Below, piece by piece: positions 5,699 through 39,245 of a stretch of DNA of 64,000 nucleotides. The DNA is from Streptomyces rimosus (GTDB lineage Bacteria; Actinomycetota; Actinomycetes; Streptomycetales; Streptomycetaceae): the NCBI RefSeq assembly GCF_008704655.1, contig NZ_CP023688.1:2046001-2110000 (forward strand), read 5' to 3'. The notes under the pieces were generated by a model, which was not told the origin of the DNA, searched no databases, and saw only the letters and a program-made list of their open reading frames with translations. Within the stretch, counting starts at the first letter, position 1, and every line of letters begins with the position of its first letter. Position numbers and translations under genes: made by a program.

Positions 5699-7168
5699 AT
5701 GAGCGACATGAACAGCGGTGGTACGAGAACGGGGGCCGCGCGCGGCGGCGGGACCGACGTGATCGTCATCGGCGGCGGCACGGGCGGCTACAGCACGGCC
5801 CTGCGGGCCGCCTCCCTCGGACTGCGGGTGGTCCTCGCCGAGCGGGACCTCGTCGGCGGGACCTGTCTGCACCGCGGCTGCATCCCGAGCAAGGCGATGC
5901 TGCACGCGGCGGAACTGATGGACGGCATCGCCGAGGCGCGCGAGCGCTGGGGTGTGAAGGCCACGCTCGACAGCGTCGACTGGGGCGCGCTGACCGCCAC
6001 CCGGGACGACATCGTGACGCGCAACCACCGGGGCGTGGAGGGGCACTTGGAGCGTGCCGGGGTGCGTGTGGTGCGCGGGAGCGCGCGCCTGACCGGCCCG
6101 CGCTCCGTGTACGTCGAGGCGCCGGACGGCGGGGAGTTCACCGCGCGGCGCGGCATCGTGCTCGCCACCGGCTCCCGCCCGCGCCTGCTGCCCGGCCTCG
6201 CACCGGACGGCCGTACCGTCGTCACCAGCGACGACGCCCTGTTCGCGCCCGGCCTGCCGGACTCGGTCCTGGTGCTGGGCGGCGGCGCGATCGGCGTCGA
6301 GTACGCGTCCTTCCACCGGTCGATGGGCGCCCGGGTCACCCTCGTCGAGGCCGCCGGGCGACTGCTGCCCCTGGAGGACGAGGACGTGAGCCGCCACTTG
6401 GCGCGCGGCCTGAAGAAGCGCGGGATCACGGTCCGTACGGACTCGACGCTGACCGGGGCCGAGGTGACGGGGTCCGGTGTACGGGCCACCGTACGCACCC
6501 GCGGCGGCGAGGAGACGGTCGAGGCCGAACGCCTGCTGGTCGCGGTCGGCCGGGTGCCGGTGACCGACGGCCTGGGCCTCGCCGCTGCCGGACTCGCCAC
6601 CGACGCGCGCGGTTTCGTGCCGCCCGCCGACTGGTCCCGCCTGGAGACCGCCGTACCCGGTATCCATGTGGTGGGCGACCTGCTGCCGCCGCCCTCTCCC
6701 GGCCTGGCGCACGCCTCGTTCGCGGAGGGCCTGCTGGTCGCCGAAACGCTGGCCGGCGTGCCGTCCCGGCCGGTGGACCACGCGACCGTGCCGCGCGTGA
6801 CGTACTCCTCGCCGCAGACCGCCTCGGTCGGCCTGACCGAGGCGGAGGCACGCGCCCGCGGCCTGGAGGTGCGGGTCAACACCATGCCGCTGACGGCGGT
6901 CGCCAAGGGCATGGTGCACGGACAGGGCGGCATCGTGAAGGTCGTCGCGGCGGCGGACGGTGCGGGCGGTGAGGCCACCGGGGCCGTACTCGGCGTGCAC
7001 CTGGTGGGCCCGCACGTCTCGGAGATGATCGCCGAGAGCCAGCTGATCGTCGCCTGGGACGCCGAACCGTCCGATGTGGCACAGCACATCCACGCGCATC
7101 CCACGCTGTCGGAAGCGGTCGGGGAGGCGTTCCTGACGCTGGCGGGGAGGGGGCTGCATCAACATTGA
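5699..7168 (+). CDS. Dihydrolipoamide dehydrogenase family flavoprotein
   Basis: 489-residue class I pyridine nucleotide-disulfide oxidoreductase. The FAD-binding VIVIGGGTGGYS motif begins near residue 21; the redox-active pair is Cys56/Cys61 in GTCLHRGC. An NAD-binding GGGAIGVE motif follows mid-protein, and the C-terminal dimerisation domain ends with the HAHPTLSE active-site His/Glu signature of lipoamide dehydrogenases. The ATG at 5699 is preferred to the in-frame ATG at 5633, which would run through the regulatory gap. No 2-oxoacid dehydrogenase genes are adjacent, so it may be a second Lpd copy. It is probably controlled by the divergent LysR protein. Confidence 0.88.
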   Translation: MSDMNSGGTRTGAARGGGTDVIVIGGGTGGYSTALRAASLGLRVVLAERDLVGGTCLHRGCIPSKAMLHAAELMDGIAEARERWGVKATLDSVDWGALTATRDDIVTRNHRGVEGHLERAGVRVVRGSARLTGPRSVYVEAPDGGEFTARRGIVLATGSRPRLLPGLAPDGRTVVTSDDALFAPGLPDSVLVLGGGAIGVEYASFHRSMGARVTLVEAAGRLLPLEDEDVSRHLARGLKKRGITVRTDSTLTGAEVTGSGVRATVRTRGGEETVEAERLLVAVGRVPVTDGLGLAAAGLATDARGFVPPADWSRLETAVPGIHVVGDLLPPPSPGLAHASFAEGLLVAETLAGVPSRPVDHATVPRVTYSSPQTASVGLTEAEARARGLEVRVNTMPLTAVAKGMVHGQGGIVKVVAAADGAGGEATGAVLGVHLVGPHVSEMIAESQLIVAWDAEPSDVAQHIHAHPTLSEAVGEAFLTLAGRGLHQH

Positions 7169-32736: not shown

Positions 32737-34092
32737 ATGGAACATCTCGGTACGGGCATCGGCTGGCGGCCCGAGATCGCCGACGGGGTGGCGGAGCTGC
32801 CCGGCGTGGACTGGGTGGAGGTCGTCGCCGAGAACCTCTGTCCCGGTCATCTCCCACCCGCCTTGCAGGCGCTGCGCGAGCGGGGCACGACGGTGGTGCC
32901 GCACGGCGTCTCGCTCGGGCTCGGCGGCGCCGAACGCCCGGACCCGGCCCGGCTCGCCGCCCTCGCGGAACGCGCCGAGGCACTGGGCGCGCCGCTGGTC
33001 ACCGAGCACATCGCGTTCGTACGGGCCGGGGGCCCGCTGACCGCCTCCCCCGCGATGGAGGCGGGGCACCTGCTGCCCGTGCCCCGCACCCGCGACGCTC
33101 TGGACGTGCTCTGCGAGAACATCCGCATCGCGCAGGACGCGCTGCCCGTACCGCTCGCCGTGGAGAACATCGCGGCGCTGGTCGCCTGGCCCGACGAGGA
33201 GATGACCGAGGGACGGTTCCTCGCCGAACTGGTCGAGCGCACCGGCGTACGGCTGCTCATCGATGTCGCCAACCTCCACACCAATCATGTGAACCGGAAC
33301 GAGGACCCGGCCACGGCACTGGACGAGCTGCCGGTCGAGGCCATCGCGTATGTGCACGTGGCGGGCGGGATCGAGCGGGACGGGGTCTGGCACGACACCC
33401 ACGCCCACCCGGTGACCCGCCCCGTCCTGGACGTACTGGCGGAACTCTGCGCCCGCACCACGCCTCCCGGCATCCTCCTGGAGCGCGACGAGAACTTCCC
33501 GGCGACCGATGAACTCGCCAAGGAGCTGGACATGATCCGCACGGTGATGACGGAGGCGCCGGCGGTCCCGGTACGCCGGGGGCCCGGGACCGCACAGGAG
33601 CCCGCGACGGAAGGCAGCCCCACCACCGGCCCGGCTCCGACCACCGGCCCGGCCACGACCACCGGTCCGGCCACGACCACCCCCGCCCGGCAGCGCCTGG
33701 CCGTCGCGCAGGCCGCGCTGCTCTCCGCGCTGGTGGCCGGGACGCCGGCGCCGGAGGGCTTCGACCGGCGGCGGCTGCTCGTGCAGAGCCGGGCGCTGGC
33801 CGACAAGCGGGCCTCCGTGGTCGCCAAGGTCGCGCCCGAGCTGCCGGGCATCCTCGGCACGGACTACCGGCCCAGCTTCCTCGGTTACGCGCGGCACCGG
33901 CCCATGAAGGGCGGTTACCGCCAGGACGCCATGGACTTCGCCGTGCATCTGCTGGCCGAGAACCGGCCCGCCGACCCGGACGCGCGCCGTCAGCTGACGC
34001 AGTGGTGGCGGGACCGCTCCGGGCCGAAACCGCCGGGCAGGCCCGCGAACCGGCTCGTCCGCGCCGCACGGCTCGCCCTGGGCCGGGGGTGA
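32737..34092 (+). CDS. MNIO (DUF692) enzyme with fused C-terminal partner-like domain
   Basis: 451 residues (465 if the ATG at 32695 is used; 32737 has GGGGGGAA upstream and starts at the conserved [10 protein letters not shown]). Residues ~1-270 are the DUF692/MNIO TIM barrel, multinuclear non-haem iron oxygenases such as MbnB that rewrite Cys or other residues of peptides. Likely metal/active-site segments are HGVSLGLGG (His56), TEHIAF (His91), [35 protein letters not shown] and ERDENF. A Thr/Gly/Pro linker leads to a ~125-residue C-terminal domain ([11 protein letters not shown] to AMDFAVHLL) reminiscent of separate MNIO partner proteins. It overlaps the next gene by one base (TGATG). Substrate is inferred to be the downstream Cys-tail protein. 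Confidence 0.88.
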
Positions 34093-35141
34093 TGAACATG
34101 CTCGCGCCTCTGGTGACCCTGGTGATCGCCGCCTCCTCGCTGCTGCTCGTCGCCCGTACCGTCCATGTCGTCCGTGCGACGCCCCGCCCCAAGCGCCGCA
34201 AGGCGACCGCATACGAACTCTGGGAGATCGCCTTCCTCGCCGGCGGCCCCGCCCGGGTCGCGGACGCCGCGATCGCCGGTATGCACCAGGACGGCCGGCT
34301 CGCCGTGGGCGGGCCCGGTGTGGTGTCCGTGCGGCAGGCGGTGGCGTACGACCCGGTCGAGACGGCCGTCCTGGACTCGCTGGCGCGGACTCCGGACGGC
34401 GCGCTGGACACCCTGCGCCGCCACGTCATGCGGGCCCCGGCCGTCCAGGCGGTCGGTGACCGGCTGGCGAAGCGCGGTCTGATGCGGAATCCGCGCGCCG
34501 GGCGCCCCTGGCGGCGGTACGCCGCCTGGCAGTCGGGGATCTGTGCGGCGGGCTTCGTGCTCGTCCTGCTCTTCACCTTGACGGGCGCCATCACCGGCGC
34601 GAACGGAGAGACACCCTTCGTCGTCCAGGTCCTGCCTGCGGCCCTCCTCGGCATCGTGACCGGCGCGGTGTGCCGGAAGGTCCTCAGCAGGCGGGTGACG
34701 CGGGCCGGTGTCTCGGCGGTACGGACGTTCCGTACGGCGCACAAGGCGGACCTGGTGAGCGACGCGACCCAGTCCGCCGCGCTGCTCGTGGCGCTCGGCA
34801 GCACCGCGCTGCTCGTGGACGACGTACTGCGCGACCACCTCACCGAGGTGCAGCACTCGATGGCGGGTGCGGGTGCCTCGGCGGCGCCGTACTCCGGGTC
34901 GTCGTCCACCACGTCGACCGGCTCGTCGAACGCGAGCTGCGGCTGGAACGTGCCGGACGACAGCTCGGACACGGCCTGGTGCGGGTCGTCGTGCGGCGGG
35001 TCGGGGTCGGGGTCGGGGTGCGGCAGTTCGTCGTGCGGTGGCGGGTCGTCGTGCGGCGGTGGCTCGTCGTGCGGCAGTTCCGGGTCCAGCTGCAGCAGCA
35101 GTTCCTCTTCCTGCGGCGGCGGTGGCTGCGGGGGCAGCTGA
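34092..35141 (+). CDS. TIGR04222 family membrane protein with ten-cysteine Gly/Ser tail
   Basis: 349 residues, start ATG overlapping the MNIO stop. A membrane helix (residues ~4-21) is followed by a cytoplasmic-looking TIGR04222 domain (AYELWEIAFLAGGPARVADAAIAGMHQDGRL, then a Val-rich winged-helix-like part), two more helices (~155-178, ~187-202), then a short helical region. The tail from ~262 is Ser/Gly rich, with Cys at about 283, 297, 301, 310, 315, 321, 327, 334, 341 and 346; most are in GSSC/GGGSSC repeats. Low-complexity Cys tails next to an MNIO are what a modification substrate would look like. The product is unknown; metal binding or a cell-surface modification are inferences. Confidence 0.85.
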   Translation: MNMLAPLVTLVIAASSLLLVARTVHVVRATPRPKRRKATAYELWEIAFLAGGPARVADAAIAGMHQDGRLAVGGPGVVSVRQAVAYDPVETAVLDSLARTPDGALDTLRRHVMRAPAVQAVGDRLAKRGLMRNPRAGRPWRRYAAWQSGICAAGFVLVLLFTLTGAITGANGETPFVVQVLPAALLGIVTGAVCRKVLSRRVTRAGVSAVRTFRTAHKADLVSDATQSAALLVALGSTALLVDDVLRDHLTEVQHSMAGAGASAAPYSGSSSTTSTGSSNASCGWNVPDDSSDTAWCGSSCGGSGSGSGCGSSSCGGGSSCGGGSSCGSSGSSCSSSSSSCGGGGCGGS

Positions 35142-35285: not shown

Positions 35286-36239
35286 ATGCGATCCGTAACC
35301 GGCACCGGCCTCGTCGTCACCGCGCTCGCCGCGACCCTGGCCGCGCTGCTCTTCCCGATCTGGTCGTTCGCCGGCCGGCCGGGCCAGGACGGGGGCGCCG
35401 ACACCCAGACCGTCGCGACCTCGTTCGGCCCGCTGTCCGCGCTCGACCGTGACTTCGTCAACCGCGTACGCCTGGCGGGCCTGTGGGAGCTGCCCGCGGG
35501 CCAGCAGGCCCAGCAGCGCGGCACCGTGCCGTCCGTACGGGAGGCGGGCACCCACCTCGTCGAGGGGCACACCTCGCTCGACCGGCACGTACGCGAGGTG
35601 GCGGCGCAGCTCGGTCTCGCGCTGCCCGACCGGCCCAACGCCCAGCAGCGGCACTGGCTGGCCGAGCTGAGCGCGGCGCGCGGGGCCGCGTACGACCGGA
35701 AGTTCGCGAACATCCTGCGGCTCGCGCACGGCAAGGTCTTCACCGTCGTCGCGCAGGTGCGCGCCACCACCCGCAACGCGCTCGTGCGGAGCCTGGCCGA
35801 CGACGCCAACCGCACCGTCCTGGACCACATCTCCGTCCTGGAGCACACCGGCTTCGTCGACTTCGACGCGATCGCCGAGGACGCGGCCACCTCCTCCCCG
35901 TCGCCGAGCCCCTCGGCCCCGCCGCCGTCCCTGGACGCGCCGGCCGCCACACCGACGCCCGTCACTCCGTCGGCGACGTATTCACTGCCTCCGCCCGCCA
36001 CGCCACCCGCCACCGCCACCGGGGCCCCGGAATCCGCCCGGTACCCGACGGCCGGCCTCAACACCCCCGAGAGAACGGGAAGAAGTGATCGCCCATGCAC
36101 GACCCCCGGCACTCCGCGAGCCCAAAGCCCCCGCAGAGCCCTCGCCCTTCGCCTCCCCCACGACCAGCGCCACCGCCCCACAAGCCCCCGCAGCTCCCAC
36201 GGCACCGGCGCCGGCTCGGCACCAAGCACCTCGTGCTGA
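35286..36239 (+). CDS. DUF4142 family exported protein, C-terminus uncertain
   Basis: 317 residues as read. An N-terminal signal/anchor helix (residues ~5-27) and a four-helix DUF4142-like (ferritin-like fold) domain (LSALDRDFVNRVRLAGLWELPAGQQA to HISVLEHTGF) are followed by a Pro/Ser/Thr-rich tail. The reading frame runs 145 bp into the next gene, and the last ~50 residues look like an out-of-frame read of it. In the other frame a TGA at 36086-36088 sits 6 bp before the DUF1996 ATG, so a one- or two-base indel in the tail (about 36000-36085), or a sequencing error, would restore a normal end. Role unknown. Confidence 0.75.
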   Translation: MRSVTGTGLVVTALAATLAALLFPIWSFAGRPGQDGGADTQTVATSFGPLSALDRDFVNRVRLAGLWELPAGQQAQQRGTVPSVREAGTHLVEGHTSLDRHVREVAAQLGLALPDRPNAQQRHWLAELSAARGAAYDRKFANILRLAHGKVFTVVAQVRATTRNALVRSLADDANRTVLDHISVLEHTGFVDFDAIAEDAATSSPSPSPSAPPPSLDAPAATPTPVTPSATYSLPPPATPPATATGAPESARYPTAGLNTPERTGRSDRPCTTPGTPRAQSPRRALALRLPHDQRHRPTSPRSSHGTGAGSAPSTSC

Positions 36240-37402: not shown

Positions 37403-37595
37403 GGAACACGGGACCGTACGCACGCAAGGCTGTACGAGCCGAACGGCCGTGGCCCCCGCACCGCGCTCCACTCGTTGGGGGCATAGCTCCCGACACCGGA
37501 GGGCGGTGCTTTACAAGCCCAACCCTCGCCCCAACTATCCCTTTTGTATGCGCACCGGGCGTCTCCACGGCGCCTCCATACGAAGGGACGGCTTT

Positions 37596-39245
37596 GTGAA
37601 AGCAGTAGCGCTCTACGGCACCCTCGGGTCGCTGGTCCTGTCCGCCCTCGTCGCCGTCCCGGCCGGCGGCACCACCCGGCCCGCGGAGGCCCCGGTCAGG
37701 ACCCCGGCCCCCGCGCCGCACCGGATCACCTTCGGCCACTGCGCACCCGAGGAGCACCTGCCGGCCGGCGTGGAGTGCGGCCGCCTCGCCGTCCCGCTGG
37801 ACTACGCCCACCCCAAGGGCAAGAAGATCTCCCTCACCGTGAGCCGGGCCCGCGCCACCGGCTCCCCCAGGGAACGCCAGGGCTCGCTCGTCTTCAACCC
37901 GGGCGGACCCGGGGCGTCCAGCATGAACTTCCCGCTGTACGGGCAGCTGGACCGGTGGCGCAAGACGGCGCGGGCCTACGACCTCGTCGGGTACGCGCCG
38001 CGCGGCGTCGGGCGCTCGGCGCCGCTGTCCTGCCAGGACCCGGCGGAGTTCACCAAGATCCCGAGCCGGAGCCCGAAGCTTCCCCCGGAGGCGTTCAAGC
38101 GGAAGAAGTTCGCCGAGGCGAAGGCGTACGCGCAGGGCTGCGCGCGCAACGCGGGCCCGGCCCTTCGCCACTTCACGTCCGCCAACAACGCCCGCGACCT
38201 GGACATGCTGCGCGCCGGGCTCGGCGAGAAGAAGCTCACCTTCATGGGCGCGTCCTACGGCACCTACTTCGGGGCCGTGTACGCGACGCTCTTCCCCGGC
38301 CACGTCCGCCGCATGGTCTTCGACAGCGTCGTCAATCCAGACCCCCGGCACGTCTGGTACCGCAACAATCTCGCCCAGAACATCGGCTTCGAGCGCCGCT
38401 GGCAGGACTGGGCCCGCTGGGTGGCCAAGCACCACAAGGTCTACCACCTGGGTACGACACCGCGGGCGGTGCTGCGCACGTACGACACCGTGCGGGCGCG
38501 GCTGGACCGCAAGCCGCTGGGCGGAAAGGTCGGGTCGGCGCAGCTCCAGGCGGCGTTCCTCAAGACGGGCTACAACGACGCGTACTGGCCGGTGCGCGCG
38601 GCGGCGCTCGCCGCGTACGTCAAGGGCGACCCGAAACCGCTCCTCAAGCAGGCCACCCCGCTGCCGGACGGCGCGAAGTCGGACGAGAACGGCAACGCGG
38701 TCTATACGGCGGTGGAGTGCAACGACGGGCTGTGGCCGCGTGACCTGCGGGTCTGGGACCGGGACAACACCGCGAGCGCGCGGGTGGCACCCTTCGAGAC
38801 CTGGGACAACGCCTGGATGAACATGCCGTGCGCCTTCTGGCCCCGCTTCTCGCCCAGGGGCGCCGCCGCCGTACAGGACCCGATGGGCTACGCGGCGGAC
38901 GTGGGCGAGGCGGCCATGCCGCCGGCCGGTGCGCCGCACCGTCCGGTGGACGTGCGTACGGCGCCGGGCGCGCTGCCGCCGGTGCTGCTGCTGTCGGCCG
39001 AGCGGGACGCCGCCACACCGCACGCCGGCGCGATCGAGCTGCGGCGCCGGCTGCCCGGCTCGGCGCTGGTGACCGAGCGCGGCGCGGGTACGCACGGTGT
39101 CTCGTTCGGCACGAACACCTGCGCCAACCAGTATGTGGAGCGGTATCTGCTGACCGGGCGGACCCCGGCGCGGGACACGTACTGCGGGCCGCGCGCGGAG
39201 CCCAAGCCGGTGCTGCCGACGGCCGGGAAGCGCGGGAGCAAGTAG
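37596..39245 (+). CDS. Secreted alpha/beta hydrolase, tripeptidyl aminopeptidase-like
   Basis: 549 residues. Signal-like start VKAVALYGTLGSLVLSALVAVPAGG, then an alpha/beta-hydrolase fold: VFNPGGPGASS (oxyanion region), GYAPRGVGRS, and GASYGTYFGAVYA with the nucleophilic Ser. The Asp/His part is in the C-terminal TAP-like region (LLLSAERDAATPHAGA and GTHGVSFG). Streptomyces tripeptidyl aminopeptidases have this layout and release N-terminal tripeptides in the extracellular space. The GTG at 37596 follows GAAGGGA. An upstream in-frame start at 37449 would place the signal 50 residues in and is not used. Confidence 0.85.
   Translation: MKAVALYGTLGSLVLSALVAVPAGGTTRPAEAPVRTPAPAPHRITFGHCAPEEHLPAGVECGRLAVPLDYAHPKGKKISLTVSRARATGSPRERQGSLVFNPGGPGASSMNFPLYGQLDRWRKTARAYDLVGYAPRGVGRSAPLSCQDPAEFTKIPSRSPKLPPEAFKRKKFAEAKAYAQGCARNAGPALRHFTSANNARDLDMLRAGLGEKKLTFMGASYGTYFGAVYATLFPGHVRRMVFDSVVNPDPRHVWYRNNLAQNIGFERRWQDWARWVAKHHKVYHLGTTPRAVLRTYDTVRARLDRKPLGGKVGSAQLQAAFLKTGYNDAYWPVRAAALAAYVKGDPKPLLKQATPLPDGAKSDENGNAVYTAVECNDGLWPRDLRVWDRDNTASARVAPFETWDNAWMNMPCAFWPRFSPRGAAAVQDPMGYAADVGEAAMPPAGAPHRPVDVRTAPGALPPVLLLSAERDAATPHAGAIELRRRLPGSALVTERGAGTHGVSFGTNTCANQYVERYLLTGRTPARDTYCGPRAEPKPVLPTAGKRGSK

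Follow-up and report, generated by a model that had tools for sequence, protein, structure and literature searches.

A DUF692 (MNIO) enzyme with a fused partner-like domain stands beside a cysteine-tailed TIGR04222 membrane protein in Streptomyces rimosus

In a 64,000-nucleotide stretch of the Streptomyces rimosus chromosome (here called the window; it spans 2.05-2.11 Mb in a genome assembled as one contig of 9.36 Mb), two neighbouring forward-strand genes encode an MNIO (DUF692) enzyme with a fused C-terminal domain (CTD) and a TIGR04222 membrane protein whose Gly/Ser tail holds ten cysteines. This gene pair is a real, conserved system. The strongest new points are the natural fusion of an MNIO with a partner-like domain, and the presence of such a domain, either fused or encoded directly alongside, at all 54 MNIO-TIGR04222 pairs found among genomes of the same class.

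The MNIO gene (32737..34092) encodes 451 amino acids and matches PF05114 over residues 6-271 (E=1.2e-80, 271 bits, cut-off 25). The TIGR04222 gene (34092..35141) encodes 349 amino acids and matches its model over residues 8-240 (E=6.5e-39, 133.9 bits, cut-off 43); the protein exceeds the model cut-off, has three predicted transmembrane segments and ends in low-complexity sequence, as expected of the TIGR04222 class. It has no match in PHROGs, and DUF2207 was rejected as a relative of its fold, being hit by three of 21 members with a best E of 0.14, which is too weak. An earlier, sequence-only reading of this DNA had proposed an MNIO and, directly behind it, a TIGR04222 membrane protein whose tail contains ten cysteines, and both family matches confirm it. 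The one-base overlap (TGATG) that it described holds if translation starts at ATG 34092 and is replaced by a five-base gap if it starts at the alternative ATG 34098, the equivalent of which begins the close relative P0121. The nearest relatives of the window proteins are from Streptomyces rimosus (MNIO identity 96%), and the genome itself contains a single MNIO match and a single TIGR04222 match. The pair was also said to be core chromosome, a fair description given that an MNIO match above 180 bits was detected in 27 of the 31 same-genus genomes in a 296-genome sample of the class (the class sample).

Across the class sample, 77 MNIO matches above 180 bits, the threshold for all locus counts, fall in 72 genomes. 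Among the 85 MNIO rows used, those at or below 140 bits (six) were excluded from the genome tally and those at or below 180 bits (eight) from the locus counts; three low-scoring fragments were left out of the linkage count, and two matches above 140 bits (G310 and G323) had no retrieved locus, giving 77 loci. A TIGR04222 gene lies within 4 kb on the same strand for 54 of the 77 matches, with the MNIO first in 23 (the Streptomyces order) and TIGR04222 first in 31. The co-occurrence of the two families, proposed earlier as a check on the pairing, is therefore strong. Seen from the other gene, 62 of 106 TIGR04222 copies are near an MNIO. These 106 rows represent all but one of the 84 genomes that clear the cut-off (the 84th, G364, clears it just when its pieces are joined and was left out, as were small second pieces in G423 and G309), and they may be an undercount because the nine best candidates per genome were scored. 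In a phylum sample (296 genomes, overlapping with the class sample), 14 of the 15 genomes with a TIGR04222 match over the cut-off have an MNIO within about 2.5 kb, as read from the coordinates.

The MNIO barrel (residues 6-271, 32752..33549) can be aligned with the chains of 3BWW, TglH and MbnB, and by its sequence the enzyme is a PF05114 family member with conserved iron-site residues. Nine presumed metal-site residues are kept in all 74 MNIOs compared, including those from loci with a tail-less TIGR04222 protein, save one gap at E249 (73 of 74). Loss of metal ligands in orthologues, which the sequence-only reading had named as a sign against itself, was thus not seen. For six of the residues (H56, H91, E143, D176, H207 and E249) the ligand role is our assumption. 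The other three, N179, D220 and H222, correspond in our reading of the alignment to N175, D242 and H244 of HvfB, whose replacement abolishes activity (PMC13419390).

Most MNIOs require a separate partner protein. Here the barrel continues through a Pro/Thr/Gly-rich linker (residues 272-315, 33550..33681) into a partner-like CTD of 136 residues (residues 316-451, 33682..34089), in which Lys42-Arg43 (CTD numbering) is invariant; the sequence-only reading had described the barrel correctly and overlooked this domain. The CTD belongs with PF26136, named 'SCO6045-like C-terminal' in the annotations of relatives, and PF05114 and PF26136 are both present in all 120 listed MNIO relatives (the best 120 of 6456 matches). 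At the 77 MNIO loci the CTD is fused in 37, encoded as a separate frame directly downstream in 34 and absent in six. It accompanies 54 of 54 MNIOs with TIGR04222 within 4 kb and 17 of the 23 others. The iterated CTD model was trained on its own matches, which inflates its E-values; a model built from Streptomyces only still finds the separate frame directly behind a CTD-less MNIO in four genomes (G049, G214, G192 and G260, 2e-14 to 1e-12), with a partial match at a fifth locus (G270, 1e-4). On a tree of 74 of the 77 barrels (three MNIOs above 300 bits, from another subfamily, were left out), the fused or separate state requires seven changes, at least four of them forced by well-supported branches. 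When a domain joins and leaves the same enzyme repeatedly, this is a classic sign that the two work together, and we consider it probable, on these sequence patterns, that the CTD is the partner protein of the MNIO, naturally fused.

Some loci show the CTD in other states. In two Streptomyces genomes (G491 and G515, loci L081 and L104) it lies in a different frame from the barrel, an apparent fission inside the fused clade. CTD genes behind the MNIO in L053 (about 6741-6866) and L101 (about 5816-5953) seem truncated to about 50 residues; together with that of L130 these were left out of the CTD alignment (A2, 68 rows).

The relationship of the CTD to known partner families was approached by profile comparison. 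PF09836 (DUF2063) is matched by six of the 68 CTD members at E<=1 (best 5e-4). An hhalign comparison with 13 DUF2063 proteins pairs 64 columns, sensibly in register, at P=0.0012 (control family P=0.25), and in a profile search against 650 shuffled sequences the DUF2063 proteins take the first five places. Several points count on the other side: the hhalign probability is just 19%, shuffled sequences are interspersed below those first five places, and the window's own CTD has no family match in the local Pfam copy. The similarity to DUF2063 is therefore best called weak, and a search of the PDB with the CTD profile returned one chance-level match (0.19) and neither NGO1945 (3dee) nor TglI (8hi7). 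A DUF2063-like (PME) fold appears likely from the profiles. Regarding partner types, the DUF2063 match that a PME-type 1 partner (DUF2063 plus RRE) would give was not found in the window MNIO, its CTD or the scanned neighbours (LysE, TIGR04222, DUF4142 and DUF1996). The CTD family resembles PME-type 2, a gene behind the MNIO that lacks the DUF2063 signature, in that 34 of 77 loci have it separately downstream; in the window it is fused.

The tail of the TIGR04222 protein (residues 283-349, 34938..35138) contains ten Cys and no Lys in the last 67 residues of the protein, together with a Trp-Cys motif. Among the 503 open frames of at least 60 amino acids in the window, a single one has nine Cys in a 60-residue stretch that is at least half Gly/Ser, and the runner-up has two. 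The genome holds no second match to the tail peptide better than E=0.2. The cysteines are widespread in relatives: 119 of 120 listed homologues have 4-11 Cys in their last 100 residues, the exception (P0122) being a cut-down record with the same sequence as the window protein, and a Trp-Cys pair is present within the last 110 residues of 42 of 42 Cys-tailed copies from 80 named Streptomyces loci. Gly follows Cys more often than composition predicts. This holds for 118 of the 120 homologues (86% of 829 Cys, 47% expected; P0122 and P0228 left out), for 10 Streptomyces tails of the sample (79% of 71, 40% expected) and for 33 tails of other families (92% of 147, 60% expected).

Cys-tailed copies (at least two Cys in Gly/Ser context) make up 33 of the 35 TIGR04222-first and 10 of the 27 MNIO-first copies near an MNIO. 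They occur in 46 of 62 genomes with an MNIO and in two of 21 without (Fisher p=1.9e-7, a value that ignores the kinship of the genomes and so is no true probability). The two MNIO-less genomes were kept in the count; in one (G350) the Cys-tailed gene stops some 140 bases short of the contig end on which the MNIO would be expected, and in the other (G423) the 311-residue 'tail' resembles a wrong frame. In one genome (G260), a 65-residue Cys/Gly/Ser frame (L056:6574-6771, forward strand) begins where a second, tail-less TIGR04222 gene upstream of the MNIO ends, and may represent the tail in the form of an independent small precursor.

We propose that the two genes specify a self-contained MNIO that modifies protein, together with the membrane-anchored protein on which it acts. 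The barrel would carry a multi-iron site, and the fused CTD would replace the separate partner protein. Working in the cytoplasm, the enzyme would target the disordered tail of the TIGR04222 protein encoded next to it, which would stay in the membrane and keep its tail on the inner side. Cysteines in Ser/Gly-Cys-Gly contexts would be oxidised there, most likely to 5-thiooxazole-like groups through the loss of four electrons for each Cys. The product would be a membrane-tethered, multivalent buffer for soft metals (copper) or for redox. These parts differ in strength. The sequence patterns moderately favour the tail as an MNIO substrate, whereas modification of this tail by an MNIO that carries its own partner domain has about even odds. 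Thiooxazole chemistry on the tail cysteines is suggested tentatively, by analogy, and a copper role, by analogy with bufferins and oxazolins, a shade more tentatively. The complete picture, in which actinomycete fused MNIO-partner enzymes oxidise many cytoplasmic-tail cysteines of a membrane protein into a tethered thiooxazole polymer that buffers copper or oxidants, is a speculative one that we would hold rather unlikely to be right in every part.

SCO6045 of S. coelicolor, after which the CTD family is named, is presumably an MNIO of this kind. It has been reported to be induced 3.0-fold by H2O2 alongside sulfate-to-cysteine genes, an induction not seen in the hbpS-senS-senR mutant (PMC4991794). 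This fits a redox or soft-metal role.

The best-surviving alternative, which we regard as possible and on the unlikely side, is that the MNIO acts on another substrate while the TIGR04222 protein is a membrane partner (a scaffold, sensor or export aid) and its tail cysteines are free thiols that bind metal or form disulfides. A well-supported Streptomyces clade with 16 MNIO rows speaks for it, and against our proposal: the fused MNIO and its metal-site residues are kept there, and the nearby TIGR04222 protein is tail-less or missing. A rescan of these 16 genomes, in which nearly all candidates were scored, found TIGR04222 in 14 and none in two, at places already known to be tail-less except for one match below the cut-off in G499, whose sequence was not read. 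With the window protein as query, full-length tailed relatives were recovered in G104 and G285, and weak N-terminal matches in the 16 genomes. As no Cys-tailed copy was found in this clade, the MNIO kept there must have another substrate or function. The tail is thus at most one of the substrates of the MNIO, and the tail-less TIGR04222 protein or something else must matter too.

Gene order points the same way. Overall, 17 of the 27 TIGR04222 copies behind an MNIO lack a Cys tail, and 23 of the 77 MNIO matches have no TIGR04222 within 4 kb (some possibly missed, with nine candidates per genome scored). In a survey of named Streptomyces loci (the best 80 of 528, some cut by contig ends), a Cys-tailed TIGR04222 gene follows the MNIO in 39. 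A tail-less TIGR04222 gene often stands beside the MNIO as the second gene after the tailed one: the order MNIO-CTD, Cys-tailed TIGR04222, tail-less TIGR04222 is present in 17 loci, and in eight more with a DUF4142 gene upstream. The order MNIO-CTD, DUF4142, tail-less TIGR04222 is present in 16. The window tail itself also departs from known substrates. Its Cys spacing is irregular, it lacks a Lys-Cys pair of the EGKCG kind, and the precursor traits sought (Lys-Cys, Cys-Lys and DUF2282) were not found, there being no Lys in the tail and no DUF2282 in the Pfam scan; Cys-Gly alone is shared with them.

On the other hand, Cys-tailed TIGR04222 proteins are nearly restricted to genomes with an MNIO, which argues against this alternative. 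In MNIO-less genomes, 20 of 22 TIGR04222 copies are without a Cys tail; some ten of these have a Gly-rich end all the same, and the others finish in unrelated sequence. No other Cys/Gly/Ser tail was found in the genome to which the window belongs.

A second alternative keeps the tail as the MNIO substrate and differs from our proposal just in the side of the membrane: the tail would be exposed outside, bufferin-like, in the periplasm or on the surface. The published topology reading places TIGR04222 tails in the periplasm (PMC12452194). A borderline fourth hydrophobic stretch in the window protein (residues 228-246, mean 1.73) would also put the tail outside if it crosses the membrane, and such stretches exceed 1.6 in seven of 31 TIGR04222-first copies and seven of 21 copies away from an MNIO. 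They do so in just two of 27 MNIO-first copies (median 0.54), the arrangement found in the window.

The predicted segments and charges favour the inside. Hydropathy predicts a first transmembrane segment at residues 3-21 (34098..34154), with six Lys/Arg in the next 15 residues, and a hairpin of two further segments (residues 149-167 and 176-194, 34536..34673). Lys/Arg residues of the window protein number six after the first segment, four before the second and five after the third, and none flank the loop between the second and third. The same pattern is seen in the 61 of 83 copies that give three segments, with mean Lys plus Arg per 15 residues of 0.5 before the first segment, 2.7 after it, 2.9 before the second and 2.9 after the third. 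Furthermore, four distant Streptomyces paralogues (L071-L074) lack the first segment and exactly the hairpin while keeping the domain and the Gly tail, which suggests that both sides of the hairpin are cytoplasmic. In one of them (L072) a stretch of 19 residues reaches a mean of 1.79, located inside the conserved domain; the other three stay below 1.6 throughout.

From hydropathy, charge distribution and these soluble paralogues, the TIGR04222 domain and tail are probably cytoplasmic, where the MNIO is, and an outside tail seems rather improbable. The 'surface polymer' of the sequence-only reading is accordingly disfavoured. Each of the four paralogues has one Cys in a short Gly-rich tail, and the MNIO-linked TIGR04222 proteins of their host genomes are tail-less. 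Tail-less copies often have a CxxxC pair at the end of the first segment (32 of 52 copies, for example L060:5853-6647 on the reverse strand).

The last alternative, low-complexity drift in GC-rich DNA with functionless cysteines and a chance gene order, has in its favour the widely variable length and spacing of the tail and is very improbable in view of the cysteines kept in nearly all homologues, the Cys-Gly bias, the invariant Trp-Cys pair and a linkage that spans many genera and both gene orders.

Downstream of the pair lies a DUF4142 protein gene (35286..36239, forward strand; PF13628, E=2.2e-20), a frequent neighbour of this MNIO in the genus and at most a possible member of the system. 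The gene scan reached roughly 6 kb on either side of the MNIO at the other genus loci and 28 kb at the window. DUF4142-like genes are near the MNIO in 17 of 27 genus loci and in 43 of the 80 named loci. A gene of alpha/beta-hydrolase type (37449-39245; named by reading) has similar genes in 21 of the 27 genus loci. Within this sample, no gene of either type turned up near the MNIOs of other genera. LysE and DUF1996 were rejected as members of the system, each occurring in one of the 27 genus loci, which is the window itself.

Two candidates for what the tail-less clade might use were also rejected. One was a Cys-rich gene in the gap that separates the MNIO from the tail-less TIGR04222 gene; the gap frames of eight such loci hold a DUF4142-like protein instead of a Cys protein. 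The soluble one-Cys TIGR04222 paralogues as a general substrate exceed 200 bits in just four of the 16 genomes (G153, G172, G222 and G275), with partial matches in two more (G555 and G465). Elsewhere in the sample we found a different actinomycete MNIO operon (L076:5321-8987, also L077, L078 and L068), which comprises a Cys-rich candidate precursor of about 200 residues, the MNIO, a DUF2063 partner and a Ferritin-like protein; the Pfam checks covered the partner of L076 and L077 and, for L077 alone, the Ferritin-like protein as well.

TIGR04222 proteins with Ser/Gly-rich, Cys-containing C termini, mostly from Actinomycetota, have been described as putative MNIO substrates (Antoine et al. 2025, PMC12452194). 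The candidate peptide-modifying system put forward by the sequence-only reading is borne out in its co-occurrence and is not new, since the pairing, the Gly/Ser/Cys tails and the substrate hypothesis are the same in that work. The two analyses differ in that a CTD is fused to or directly follows the MNIO in 54 of 54 pairs here, and that we favour a cytoplasmic tail where a periplasmic one was proposed. In that study partners were taken as genes behind the MNIO, so a fused partner would be invisible, and many pairs seemingly had no partner gene. The fused or adjacent CTD would answer how these apparently partner-less pairs work. The PME-type 2 partners of the same study are likewise short genes after the MNIO in TIGR04222 loci, without a DUF2063 signature; the partner-like domain of the window differs in being fused to the MNIO.

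The HvfBC/oxazolin, fontiphorin and bufferin systems, whose products are 5-thiooxazole 'captophorin' RiPPs (ribosomally synthesised and post-translationally modified peptides; PMC13419390, PMC13097082), have in common with the window pair the corresponding MNIO site residues and repeated Cys-Gly. Unlike those systems, the window pair has no Sec-signal precursor, EGKCG, DUF2282 or DUF2063-RRE partner, and an integral membrane protein is its candidate substrate. The EGKCG motif, where the thiooxazole of oxazolin and fontiphorin is formed (PMC13097082), has Gly after Cys as the window tail does, while its Lys before Cys is missing there. Should the tail turn out to be modified, the reach of MNIO chemistry would widen beyond small precursors to include membrane-protein tails, and this in a soil genus that is very common.

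Extra domains on MNIOs are known from MovX, to which an RRE domain is fused, and from ChrH, whose additional domain is of unknown function (PMC13419390); in the window the extra domain is one that forms a separate gene in related genera. The consulted parts of PMC12452194, PMC13419390, PMC12710340 and PMC13174530, supplementary files aside, contain no mention of a natural MNIO-partner fusion of this kind. HvfB and HvfC were fused by engineering owing to the weak binding of the two (PMC13419390). The window MNIO-CTD looks like the natural counterpart of that construct, and may offer as a single chain what was there obtained by design.

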